The notes below the pieces were generated by a model, which was given only the letters and a program-made list of their open reading frames with translations, was not told where the DNA came from and searched no databases. This document shows, piece by piece, positions 35,338-38,729 of a stretch of DNA of 64,000 bases. The DNA comes from Streptomyces sp. P9-A4 (GTDB lineage: Bacteria; Actinomycetota; Actinomycetes; Streptomycetales; Streptomycetaceae): assembly GCF_036634195.1 (NCBI RefSeq), contig NZ_JAZIFY010000002.1, positions 620,001 to 684,000 of the forward strand, read 5' to 3'. The position numbers and the translations under genes are program-made. Within the stretch, counting starts at the first letter, position 1, and every line of letters starts with the position of its first letter.

Positions 35338-36642
35338 ATGACCCCGGAGCCTACGCGCCCGCTGCGAGCGGACGCGGAACGGAACCGCCGGCTGATCATG
35401 CGGACAGCTGCCCGGCTGTACGCGCAGTGCGGGGCGACCGTCCCTCTCAACGAGATCGCGCGCGAGGCGGGCATCGGAGTCGGCACCGCCTACCGCCGCT
35501 TCCCCAACCTCCAGTCGCTGATCGACGCCCTGTTCACCGAACGGTTCACCACCTTCCTCGACCTGGCGTCGGCATCCGCCCGACAGCTCGACGCTGGACA
35601 GGCACTGCGCCACTACCTCATGGAGGCGGCGGCGCGGCGGGCCGGGGACCGGGCGATTGAGGTCGTCCTCGCCCACGCGAGTGTGGAGGCGGAACCGATC
35701 GCCCGCATGCGCGACGAGCTCGCCCGGCTCGTCGAGGGTCTGGCGGAACGGGCCGTCGCGAGCGGCGCGGCCCGTACGGACTTCGCTGCCGCCGACGTGT
35801 ACGCCTTCCTGCACATGGTCGGCGCCGTGGCCGACCGCACATACGACATCGCCCCCGACGCCTGGCGCCGCTACGCCGAGGTCCTGCTGATCGGCTTCGG
35901 CCTGGCGCCGGGCCCCGGCGCACCTGTCCGCCATGACCGGCGGCCAGGTGCGCCGGACCTGGCCCAAGCCGATGAGCTGAGCAGGGGCCGGGGCACACCC
36001 CATCTCGCCGGACAGAGCTCGCGGGCCCACATCGGGTACCGGGGTCGACGTAGAGCGCCCGGGCCGCACGCGCTCCGTACCGGCCCGCGGTTCCGGCGCT
36101 TCGAGCAGAGCGCCTACGGCGTCCACGCGCAGGGGGACTTCGGCATCGGTGCCGACTTCGTGACGGATGCAGATGGGCCGCGTCCCGGCCCGCCGAGCCG
36201 CTACGGCGCAGGACGCGCCGCGTGGGGCACCGCTGCCGGAAGAGTGAGCGCCATCGCGAACCGTGGGCCGGGCGTCAGGGAGTCCAGGGTGCCGCCCATG
36301 GCCTCGGTCAGATCGCGGGCCAGTCGCAGGATCACGCTGTCCGTCGGTGGGCTCGCGGTCGTCATCGGCGCCGCACTGCCGGTCCCGGGTCCGGTCCCGT
36401 CCCCCACTCGTATCACCAGCCGACCGGACCGTACCTCGGCGGTCAGGCGGGCGGGCTCCTCGGGCGGGGTGCGGCGCAGGGCTTCCGCTGTCAACGCGGC
36501 CAGTACGCGGGTGAGCACCGCCGCGTCGGCGATCGCGTCGGGGAGGTGCTCCGGCAGGGTGCAGCGGATCCTGTCGCTGCCGGGGCCGAGGGTGTCCAGG
36601 ACCGCGGTCAGCACCTCGTCGAGGTCGACCGGGCGCAGGTAG
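35338..36642 (+). CDS. TetR family regulator with unusual read-through tail
   Basis: From ATG 35338 the protein has ERNRRLIMRTAARLYAQCGA and VPLNEIAREAGIGVGTAYRR with FPNLQSLIDAL, a standard TetR DNA-binding domain, and a ligand domain ending near residue 200 (WRRYAEVLLIGFGLAPG, about base 35930). The frame has no stop until 36640, so 434 residues are formally encoded. The tail is Arg/Gly-rich without family similarity, and its last 440 bases lie antisense to the KdpD-like gene. I infer that the original stop was lost. Function as a repressor is plausible; target unknown. Confidence 0.6.
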   Translation: MTPEPTRPLRADAERNRRLIMRTAARLYAQCGATVPLNEIAREAGIGVGTAYRRFPNLQSLIDALFTERFTTFLDLASASARQLDAGQALRHYLMEAAARRAGDRAIEVVLAHASVEAEPIARMRDELARLVEGLAERAVASGAARTDFAAADVYAFLHMVGAVADRTYDIAPDAWRRYAEVLLIGFGLAPGPGAPVRHDRRPGAPDLAQADELSRGRGTPHLAGQSSRAHIGYRGRRRAPGPHALRTGPRFRRFEQSAYGVHAQGDFGIGADFVTDADGPRPGPPSRYGAGRAAWGTAAGRVSAIANRGPGVRESRVPPMASVRSRASRRITLSVGGLAVVIGAALPVPGPVPSPTRITSRPDRTSAVRRAGSSGGVRRRASAVNAASTRVSTAASAIASGRCSGRVQRILSLPGPRVSRTAVSTSSRSTGRR

Positions 36643-38729
36643 AGATCGAGGGACTCGGCGCGCAGGCGGCTGAGGTCGTCGAGGTCGGTGACGAGCTGAG
36701 CGGCACGACGCACCGATGACCGGGCCGTTTGGAGCAACCGGCCGTCCTCCTCGGCCGACGGCCGGGCGTTCGATGGGGCGGGATCCGAGAGACGCCGCAA
36801 CGCCTCCTCCGCAGCATGCAACGGGGCCCGCAGATCACGGCTCGCCGCGAGAAGCAGCGAGGCCCGTGTGTGTGCTGCCTCGGCGCGAAGGCCGGTCTCG
36901 GCCGCCGCGACGGCGAGCCGCCCGTGCGCGTACGCCATGCCCAACTGAGCGGCGCACGCGCGGAGTACGAGTTGGTCGTCGCTGCTCATGCTGCGACCGC
37001 GCGCCGCCAGCGTCACTCCGTCGGGGGCGAAGCTGTCCACGGGCGTCTCGACATCCGCGTCGTACGGACGTTCCGGCGGGTTCTCTCCGGCGGCGGCGAC
37101 GACGGACCAGCGCGGCTCAGCCGGGTGCTCGGTGTCTTCCTTCAGCAGACTGACGGCGTCCAGACCGAAGTCCTCCCTGACCTGTTCGAGAAGAGCCGGC
37201 AGGTCCTGGCCGCGTATGAGGGCGGTGGCCAGCCTGCTCAGTGCGCGTGCTTCGGATCTCGCACGAACCGCCTCGTACGTGCGGCGCGCGGCCGTCCCCG
37301 CGGCGGAGCCGACCACGATGGCCGTGACGCCGAAGACCAGCAGAGCGAGGACGTCCGAGGTGTGCTGCACGTTCAGGGAGTGCAGGGGCACGGTGAAGTA
37401 GTAGTCGGCGAGCAGTCCCGCCGCCACCGCGGAGATCAGGGCGGGTACCAGCCCGCCGACGAGGGCGACCACCACGACGGTCAGGAGGTAGAGCACAAGG
37501 ACGAAGGCGAGGTCCACATGGCCGCGCAGAGCGACCAGCAACGAAGTGAGCGCCGGCAGCGCGATCGCGGCCAGCAGCACCGCGCCCCGGAAGCGCCGTG
37601 GTCCGGTGGCGTGTGTCGGGTGCGGCAACCGCAGGGGCGAGGACGGCCCGGCGGCTTCTTCGTGGGTCACGACGAGCACGTCGATCGGGCCCGAACGCCG
37701 GATCGTGCGGTGTCCCACGCTTCCGTACAGGAAGGTGGAGAGCCGTCCGCGCCGGCTGGCGCCCAGGACGATCTGGGTGACGTTCTCGGCCTCCGCGAAC
37801 TGCAGCAGGGTCTCGGGGAGGTCGTCGCCGGTCGTCTGGTGGTAGCTGCCCCCCAATGACTCCACCAGCGCACGCTGGGCGGCGAGGGCGGCCGGGTCGG
37901 CGTGGACGAGTCCGTCGCTCGGCACGACGTGCAGGGCCAGGAGCTCGCTGCCCGGCGTACGGGCGGTGACCCGGGCCGCGCGGCGGATCAGGGTCTCGCC
38001 CTCCGGGCCGCCGGTCAGGGCGACCATGATGCGCTCGCGGGTCTCCCAGGGAGCGGTGATGCCGTGCTCGGCACGGTAGCGCTGAAGCCCTTCCTCCACA
38101 CGGTCGGCGAGCCAGAGCAGGGCGAGTTCCCGCAGGGCCGTGAGGTTGCCGACGCGGAAGTAGTGGGTGAGGGCGGCCTCGATGCGGTCGGAGGGATAGA
38201 TCTCTCCGTGCAGCATGCGGCGGCGCAGAAGCTCCGGTGGAAGGTCGACCACCTCGATCTGGTCAGCGCGGCGCGCGACCTCGTCGGGCAGGGTCTCGCG
38301 CTGCGGGACGCCGGTGATCTGCCGGACCACGTCGCCCAGCGATTCCAGGTGCTGGACGTTGAGGGTGGTGACGACGTCCGTCCCCGCCTCCAGCAGTTCC
38401 TCGACGTCCTGCCACCGCTTGGCGTGGCGCGAGCCCGGTACGTTCGTGTGGGCCAGCTCGTCGACCAGGGCGACCTGCGGGCGCCGGGCGAGCACCGCGT
38501 CCAGATCCATCTCGGTGAAGGCCGCCCTGCGGTGGGTCATGGTGCGCCGGGGGATCGTCTCAAGACCTTCGGCCATCTCGGCGGTCGGCCGGCGTCCGTG
38601 CGGCTCGACGAATCCGGCGACGACATCTGCACCGGTCGCGCGCAGCCGCTGCCCCTCCTCGAGCATGGTGTACGTCTTTCCCACGCCCGGGGCGGCCCCG
38701 AGGTAGATCCGCAATCGTCCTCGCGCCAT
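36201..38729 (-). CDS. KdpD-like protein with degenerate kinase domain
   Basis: This 842-residue KdpD homologue has an intact N-terminal sensor domain (Walker A GAAPGVGKTYT, HTNVPGSRHAKRWQD), a universal-stress-like domain (about 240-360) and four DUF4118 membrane segments (about 390-490). The kinase half is decayed: the H-box reads AASRDLRAPLH, with Arg631 replacing the phosphoacceptor His. The N-box is TAEALRRTP instead of VENAVKYSP, and the G1/G2 motifs are missing. It can sense but should not phosphorylate. It is transcribed in the same direction as the kdp operon, about 1.5 kb beyond kdpD. Confidence 0.9.
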   Translation of the reverse strand: MARGRLRIYLGAAPGVGKTYTMLEEGQRLRATGADVVAGFVEPHGRRPTAEMAEGLETIPRRTMTHRRAAFTEMDLDAVLARRPQVALVDELAHTNVPGSRHAKRWQDVEELLEAGTDVVTTLNVQHLESLGDVVRQITGVPQRETLPDEVARRADQIEVVDLPPELLRRRMLHGEIYPSDRIEAALTHYFRVGNLTALRELALLWLADRVEEGLQRYRAEHGITAPWETRERIMVALTGGPEGETLIRRAARVTARTPGSELLALHVVPSDGLVHADPAALAAQRALVESLGGSYHQTTGDDLPETLLQFAEAENVTQIVLGASRRGRLSTFLYGSVGHRTIRRSGPIDVLVVTHEEAAGPSSPLRLPHPTHATGPRRFRGAVLLAAIALPALTSLLVALRGHVDLAFVLVLYLLTVVVVALVGGLVPALISAVAAGLLADYYFTVPLHSLNVQHTSDVLALLVFGVTAIVVGSAAGTAARRTYEAVRARSEARALSRLATALIRGQDLPALLEQVREDFGLDAVSLLKEDTEHPAEPRWSVVAAAGENPPERPYDADVETPVDSFAPDGVTLAARGRSMSSDDQLVLRACAAQLGMAYAHGRLAVAAAETGLRAEAAHTRASLLLAASRDLRAPLHAAEEALRRLSDPAPSNARPSAEEDGRLLQTARSSVRRAAQLVTDLDDLSRLRAESLDLYLRPVDLDEVLTAVLDTLGPGSDRIRCTLPEHLPDAIADAAVLTRVLAALTAEALRRTPPEEPARLTAEVRSGRLVIRVGDGTGPGTGSAAPMTTASPPTDSVILRLARDLTEAMGGTLDSLTPGPRFAMALTLPAAVPHAARPAP

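Follow-up and report, generated by a model that had tools for sequence, protein, structure and literature searches.

The subject of this report is a kdpD-like gene in the window, a stretch of 64,000 nucleotides from Streptomyces sp. P9-A4 (contig NZ_JAZIFY010000002.1, positions 620,001 to 684,000). The gene occupies positions 36201..38729 of the minus strand and encodes, in a single open frame of 842 codons with an ATG start, a protein designated P0001. Its domain order is a KdpD/serine-kinase domain, a Usp domain, a DUF4118 transmembrane part, a GAF-like part, a pseudo-DHp and a pseudo-CA domain. The GAF-like part is so named by analogy with Escherichia coli KdpD. The Pfam models KdpD (PF02702), DUF4118 and Usp are matched with 315.6, 72.9 and 56.8 bits, all above the cut-off, which identifies P0001 as a member of the KdpD sensor family. 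The HisKA match is weak (28.8 bits, cut-off 26.9), and no HATPase_c match was found in Pfam at an E value of 0.001, whereas the two other KdpD proteins of the window score 88.4 and 87.3 bits. The NCBIfam model NF038185 (KdpD_non_kinase) yields 346.3 bits, which is below its cut-off of 550.

The histidine-kinase half of P0001 has lost its hallmark motifs. The H box reads SRDLRAPL, and Arg631 (36837..36839, minus strand) stands where the phospho-acceptor His is expected; the corresponding sequence of both other copies is SHDLRTPL, containing His625 (40246-42789) and His619 (48648-51179), respectively. In the former N box LAALTAEALRRTP (36465..36503, minus strand) the Asn has become Glu749, and the former G1-F-G2 region (36291..36407, minus strand) consists of a DGxGP remnant, the ATP lid and the F box being deleted and the GxGxG replaced. 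The H-box His, the N-box Asn, the F box, the ATP lid and the G2 GxGxG of a functional histidine kinase are all absent, and the module is predicted to be dead. A preceding sequence-only reading of this DNA had recognized the Arg631 exchange as well as complete, in-frame Walker A sensor, USP and DUF4118 parts, in agreement with our alignment and the Pfam matches; its statement that the N, G1 and G2 motifs are gone holds for N and G2, but G1 has left the DGxGP remnant. The AlphaFold model of P0001 is weak (mean pLDDT 68, pTM 0.33, N-terminal domain poorly modelled), and we therefore used only the secondary structure and fold class of its kinase module. At low overall confidence it retains the two DHp helices and most CA fold elements, with a low-confidence stretch (781-794) at the expected lid site, and Foldseek matches it to KdpD 2r8r and to histidine kinases, among them the pseudokinase DivL. 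KdpD proteins of this kind are called lid-less in the following. Since the HisKA match of P0001 exceeds the cut-off, they can pass domain surveys as full-length KdpD, and their database name “sensor histidine kinase” is a warning for annotation.

The changes are shared by a large set of relatives. Of 7,998 candidates scored in a protein search, the best 120 were considered. The 127 rows of our alignment comprise 119 of these 120 (P0005 is the query and was omitted), P0001 and seven genome loci, some of which duplicate protein rows. P0124 is the only intact kinase among them; the other 126 rows, including the query, are lid-less. The lid is absent in 125 of the 126 according to an automatic count; L012 has a longer stretch at the lid site, but neither an F box nor a GxGxG is visible by eye. 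The His position is occupied by R in 99 rows, H in 20, S in 3 and Q in 2, with a gap in 2 (104 rows with a residue other than His), compared with H in 80 of 80 canonical rows. At the N-box position the 127 rows have D (90), E (28), N (8) or H (1), and P0111 and P0112 lack the H-box stretch altogether. An alignment with orthologues had been proposed together with the sequence-only reading. Its caveat, an H box altered by a sequencing error, is very unlikely to apply because Arg occupies this position in 99/126 rows; a sequencing error or a one-off decay was ruled out, as the relatives carry the same change.

The phylogenetic tree was calculated from the N-terminal columns only, omitting those of the kinase, with 57 hand-chosen rows and a quick search. 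The core Streptomyces set, Dactylosporangium together with P0123, and a third Streptomyces type (L012, L174, L176) form one branch with an SH-aLRT support of 100, and the intact kinase P0124 is its sister (support 92). A FastTree analysis of 207 rows agrees, except that a second KdpD copy of L012, 629 amino acids long, is placed at the midpoint root with a long branch; the branch joining L012 to the other lid-less rows has a support of 89. The lid-less types form one clade, so the lid was most likely lost once. The rows with His fall mostly into one subclade with some scattered others, a pattern that may reflect loss and regain or several losses. Outside the genus, a sample of 148 genomes of the class gave 36 with a match at E 1e-280 or better, and in the 19 whose loci were read only intact kinases and no lid-less members were found; the Dactylosporangium members stem from the protein search. 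Plasmid-borne relatives were ruled out, since the 440 matching PLSDB records are all below 60% identity (best 51.4%).

The N-terminal half of P0001 presents the opposite picture. According to the available text of PMC11018627, E. coli KdpD is a tandem serine/histidine kinase, whose N-terminal KdpD domain acts as an atypical serine kinase on Ser162 of KdpB and inhibits KdpFABC at high K+. In the same source, KdpB phosphorylation is unaffected by H673A or by deletion of DHp-CA, abolished by Walker A mutations, D109A or E110A, and almost abolished by W39A/R190A. The sequence-only reading, for which KdpD signals through its His and the N-terminus is a sensor, had overlooked this tandem nature and the serine kinase (PMC11018627). 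The Walker A motif G11-x5-G17 K18 T19 (38673..38699; E. coli G30, G36 K37 T38), the Walker B residues Asp90-Glu91 (38457..38462; E. coli D109/E110, both essential there) and Arg171 (38217..38219; R190 of the E. coli adenine pair) are all present in P0001, and Tyr20 (38670..38672) takes the place of the adenine-binding E. coli Trp39, as Tyr does in most ordinary KdpDs of actinobacteria (all on the minus strand, from the alignment). Among the lid-less rows, the G and K of Walker A are invariant in the 120 having the position (6 rows are gapped there), with T in 119 and S in 1 at the Thr position; Tyr replaces Trp39 in 120/120 (69/80 in canonical rows), Walker B has D and E in 125/125, and the Arg190 position is R in 126/126.

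The two halves also differ in their evolutionary rates. Mean pairwise identity was compared between 115 lid-less rows, 55 canonical rows of the P0002 type (P0002 is the KdpD at 40246-42789) and 23 other canonical rows, leaving out P0024, P0111, P0112, the Dactylosporangium-type rows, L011 and L012. In this order, the values are 0.863/0.867/0.758 for the KdpD domain, 0.784/0.832/0.690 for Usp, 0.649/0.718/0.521 for the transmembrane part, 0.688/0.755/0.527 for GAF, 0.648/0.868/0.670 for DHp and 0.626/0.806/0.610 for CA. Expressed as distance relative to the own KdpD domain, this corresponds to 2.96/0.99/1.45 for DHp and 3.19/1.51/1.78 for CA. The ratios of nonsynonymous to synonymous substitution rates (dN/dS; NG86), determined for 15 pairs from six lid-less genes and 150 canonical pairs of matched divergence, are 0.185 and 0.170 for KdpD plus Usp, but 0.448 and 0.178 for DHp plus CA. 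Six close lid-less pairs were analysed separately for KdpD plus Usp, transmembrane part plus GAF, and DHp plus CA. P0001 compared with its two closest relatives read gives 0.07/0.26/0.41 (G362) and 0.08/0.21/0.49 (G443), and further pairs 0.08/0.13/0.32 (L160-L164), 0.14/0.16/0.44 (L161-L162) and 0.15/0.20/0.35 (L168-L160); the equivalent values for P0002 and its G362 counterpart are 0.06/0.09/0.07. In L160-L164 dS differs sixfold between the parts, which suggests recombination. The N-terminal half is accordingly about as constrained as in a working KdpD, and the kinase module is relaxed, but not neutral.

These rates bear on the notion that the gene is a duplicate in decay and about to be lost. 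Measured against the KdpD domain, DHp and CA of the lid-less proteins evolve about three and two times faster, respectively, than their P0002-type counterparts and about twice as fast as those of the 23 other canonical rows, and in the G362 assembly the lid-less gene departs from the frame of the family close to its C-terminus. Yet open frames of 800 amino acids are preserved across a clade spanning Streptomyces and Dactylosporangium, the N-terminal dN/dS in close pairs is only 0.07-0.21, and that of the module stays below 1. A frame change in the kdpD3 gene of G362 and the 88% completeness of this genome indicate that its frame changes may be sequencing or assembly errors, and they carry no weight in the reading favoured here. 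We regard decay as very improbable. The comparison of the N-terminal and kinase halves of P0001 that had been called for (0.07-0.08 versus 0.41-0.49) did not reveal the neutral dN/dS expected of simple decay, all parts being below 1. Judged from its sequence, P0001 is a real, selectively maintained protein with intact input domains and neither a case of simple decay nor an error.

A search of 392 Streptomyces genomes yielded matches above threshold in 20, namely 19 lid-less genomes and G130. The 19 genomes hold 20 lid-less genes (two in G407), all of which carry the serine-kinase motifs (one with GKS for GKT). G130 has a KdpD behind kdpABC (L123, 11625-14141) that kept the His but lost the N-box Asn and part of G2; its different position in the tree argues for a probably independent decay of the histidine kinase. 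A kdpA gene lies within about 8 kb of 12 of the 20 lid-less genes. In six (G075, G342, G305, G449, G357, G403) the lid-less kdpD is located directly upstream of kdpABC on the same strand, and the tblastn matches are separated by about 328-579 bp; the other arrangements are head to head (G329), convergent (G102, G420, G417) and, as in the window, the lid-less gene after the cluster (G000, G362). At least two full kdpA genes are present in 17 of the 19 lid-less genomes, but only in 13 of 147 others, a hand count of the remainder of a 150-genome draw (Fisher 2.6e-13, not corrected for shared ancestry). The exceptions are G518 with one and G443 with one full and one partial copy. Counting any kdpA match, the numbers are 18/19 and 16/147 for at least two, and within the 150-genome draw alone 3/3 and 13/147 for full copies (p 0.001). 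The other pump of G342, G305 and G075 adjoins a kdpE and a kdpD whose H, N, G2 and Walker B motifs are intact. The KdpB proteins beside lid-less KdpD form one branch of 14 rows (11 distinct; support 96 in FastTree, 94 in IQ-TREE), in which G075 is missing because no single frame was found. The kdpB of G075 (L121, L182) matches in more than one frame, as does the kdpD3 of G362 (L177). The serine equivalent to Ser162 (TGES) is present in the KdpB of the window and in every linked KdpB printed.

Two further explanations were weighed. The first, which takes up the sequence-only reading, is that the pseudo-histidine kinase forms heterodimers via DHp with KdpD2 or KdpD3 and tunes their kinase/phosphatase balance, just as RocA acts via CovS. 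A distant partner is conceivable, since another strong KdpD and a KdpE exist in 19/19 lid-less genomes; most secondary structure of DHp and CA is predicted to be kept (in a weak model), the model pairs with histidine kinases including DivL, the module has a dN/dS below 1 with clade-specific conserved residues, and RocA is described in the available text of PMC7028121 as interacting with CovS and needing its activities. However, no other kdpD or kdpE was found within the fetched stretch of about 8 kb in five of the six directly-upstream loci, and the sixth (G449) has a KdpD and no KdpE there. The fast evolution of DHp (identity 0.648 versus 0.868 in canonical rows) is not what an interface tied to a conserved partner would show, a second copy lacking DHp and CA exists in one lineage (two genomes, L012/L122 and L175), and P0111/P0112 lack the H-box stretch. 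We consider heterodimer formation unlikely, and less likely than a serine-kinase brake. The second explanation attributes to the N-terminal input domain a stabilising effect on KdpE~P at the kdp promoter that requires no kinase activity. The available text of PMC2714519 reports constitutive kdpFABC expression and a stabilised KdpE~P/DNA complex for E. coli KdpD/1-395, and KdpE is at hand in all 19 genomes. This scenario accounts for the kept Walker B Glu and adenine Arg no better than catalysis does and leaves the tie to the second pump unexplained, given that none of the six directly-upstream loci has an adjacent kdpE in the fetched stretch; in our opinion its probability is low.

The loss of the histidine-kinase machinery combined with an almost unchanged N-terminal kinase indicates that P0001 is probably a dedicated brake on a potassium pump and not a dead gene. 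More specifically, we favour, with some confidence, the view that it is a serine-kinase-only KdpD braking a Kdp pump, the transcription of which is controlled by an ordinary KdpDE. The transmembrane/GAF part would sense K+ sufficiency, and the N-terminal domain would bind ATP and use its Walker A and B motifs to phosphorylate KdpB at the TGES serine, thereby quickly closing the pump when K+ is sufficient. The pseudo-DHp/CA module would persist as a dimer scaffold and regulator, and an ordinary KdpD-KdpE pair encoded at another site of the genome, and in the window also nearby, would take care of transcription. Of the sequence-only reading, the maintained pseudokinase with a presumably dead histidine-kinase module and intact inputs survives. 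Heterodimer formation or signal binding as its sole mode of action finds no support as the principal explanation, in view of the kept residues of the E. coli serine kinase (PMC11018627), the strongest purifying selection in this very part, and the five of six directly-upstream loci without another kdpD or kdpE in the fetched stretch.

Several observations weigh against the proposed brake. KdpD proteins without a histidine-kinase domain are reported, as far as the available text of PMC11018627 goes, mainly from species lacking KdpE, which is present here in 19/19 genomes. Orthologues with an intact His, the counter-evidence named alongside the sequence-only reading, do exist in 20/126 lid-less rows, but all 20 are without the lid. 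Ordinary KdpD conserves the serine-kinase motifs just as well, hence their conservation documents retention and not specialisation. Purifying selection on the pseudo-kinase module (0.32-0.49 in close pairs) and its clade-specific conserved residues point to more than decay. The transmembrane part plus GAF evolves faster than in canonical KdpD (dN/dS 0.340 versus 0.274), and in one of the six close pairs (L170-L165, 0.21/0.40/0.34) it exceeds DHp plus CA. Moreover, the flank fetched for 8 of the 20 lid-less genes contains no kdpA; one of the eight has KdpB only, two are near another KdpD and five have no gene of the system in this flank. For four members of this group (the two genes of G407 and those of G365 and G443), a full kdpA lies at a distance of 12-29 kb, so that 16/20 share the contig with a kdpA within 30 kb. 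Finally, the KdpB proteins of the window and of G362 group with ordinary pumps and not with the linked-pump lineage. The window is atypical in this respect, and it looks like a rearranged case of what elsewhere is a second Kdp module.

DivL of Caulobacter and ChrS of C. glutamicum are retained pseudo-histidine kinases that reportedly act via partner kinases or regulators. Neither these two nor RocA of group A Streptococcus are known to carry an N-terminal serine kinase. RocA resembles P0001 as a retained pseudo-histidine kinase, and acts via its partner CovS (PMC7028121, available text). E. coli KdpD shares with P0001 the domain order, Walker A and B, the Arg of the adenine pair and the KdpB substrate motif (PMC11018627), but P0001 lacks the His, the Asn and the ATP lid, has Tyr for Trp39 and a histidine-kinase half predicted to be dead. 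The KdpD/Usp-only protein of Deinococcus geothermalis, DHpCA-truncated KdpDs (PMC11018627) and NF038185 likewise combine a serine-kinase domain with a missing histidine-kinase output; unlike them, P0001 keeps the transmembrane, GAF-like and pseudo-DHp/CA parts and co-occurs with KdpE and another KdpD. The P0002-type KdpD of Streptomyces KdpDE has the same architecture and about 46-50% identity, but intact histidine-kinase motifs and a DHp as conserved as its N-terminal domain. According to the available text of PMC10117811, no Streptomyces model had yet been examined for KdpDE; the authors refer to unpublished data showing that it is dispensable in S. venezuelae for development and for growth with added salt. 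No KdpD pseudokinase was found in the literature searched, which misses most subscription journals. The two separable kinase activities of KdpD were reported in 2024 (PMC11018627); the lid-less clade represents a long-lived natural evolutionary test of them and offers clean constructs for asking the role of each half.

The kdp locus of the window comprises, in minus-strand order, kdpD3, kdpA, kdpB, kdpC, kdpE, kdpD2, a gene for a 340-amino-acid protein and the lid-less kdpD. KdpD3 (P0003; 48648..51179) is followed by KdpA (46476..48122, start approximate, inside the open reading frame 46476-48392), KdpB (44335..46479) with VDESAITGESAPVIRE as the E. coli Ser162 motif, KdpC (43646..44329), the response regulator KdpE (42837..43541; 234 amino acids) and KdpD2 (P0002; 40246..42789), whose serine- and histidine-kinase motifs are both intact (all on the minus strand). 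KdpD3, the frame of which opens at TTG, retains the His, Asn, lid and G2 of the histidine kinase, and the motifs of its serine kinase are impaired, with Asp-Asp for Asp-Glu in Walker B, nine residues missing ahead of Walker B and a Cys at the adenine position. Its VDDLAH is common to G362, and the dN/dS between the two KdpD3 proteins is 0.17 for the KdpD domain, 0.14 for Usp, 0.48 for the transmembrane part plus GAF and 0.06 for the DHp part read (179 sites). KdpD3 and P0001 look like a division of labour, in two genomes only, and Asp for Glu may leave some activity. It is a tentative idea that duplication within the locus split a tandem kinase, leaving P0001 as a serine kinase only (the brake), P0003 as a histidine kinase with an impaired serine kinase and P0002 with both functions, and that elsewhere the lid-less specialist mostly accompanies a second, separately inherited pump lacking an adjacent two-component system.

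A second, divergent KdpB with the Ser162 motif VDESAVTGESAPVIRE is encoded at 51819..54356 of the plus strand (TIGR01497, 986.6 bits); no second KdpA or KdpC was found beside it in the window between 28001 and 60000. G362 has the same gene beside its own kdpD3, 95% identical to the copy of the window. The host genome contains four strong KdpD matches, three in the window and one on contig C1 at 5.80 Mb (L086), an ordinary KdpD encoded beside kdpE; no kdpABC was detected in the 19 kb read at this site. A second kdpABC is located on C1 at 2.50 Mb (L179), with no kdpD or kdpE found in the 18 kb read.

Firmicutes-type KdpDs that bind cyclic di-AMP (c-di-AMP) carry the Usp motif (A/G/C)XSXSX2N(Y/F) according to the available text of PMC8214093. 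The pattern (A/G/C)XSXSX2N occurs within residues 201-400 in 0/119 lid-less proteins and is missing from P0002 and P0003, which rules out c-di-AMP input through this motif, though a different c-di-AMP site may be present. No riboswitches were detected at Rfam gathering thresholds in the leader regions of eight loci and in the window from 34000 to 56000, the only hit being a tRNA in L008. The protein of 340 amino acids between kdpD2 and the lid-less kdpD (39078-40100, minus strand) has an N-terminal hydrophobic stretch, and neither an NCBIfam or Pfam match nor a tblastn match in the G362 stretch was found. Two related genomes harbour a second KdpD of 629 amino acids in tandem with the lid-less one (L012, 10631-12388; L175, 10739-12496), which stops before DHp and has Walker A and B and a Cys at the adenine position. 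A short frame of the window (34623-35252, minus strand) resembles the C-terminus of the molybdenum subunit of xanthine dehydrogenase and is apparently a gene remnant. The frame at 35152-36642 (plus strand), the N-terminal part of which is TetR-like, overlaps tail-to-tail with the last 442 bases of the lid-less kdpD.

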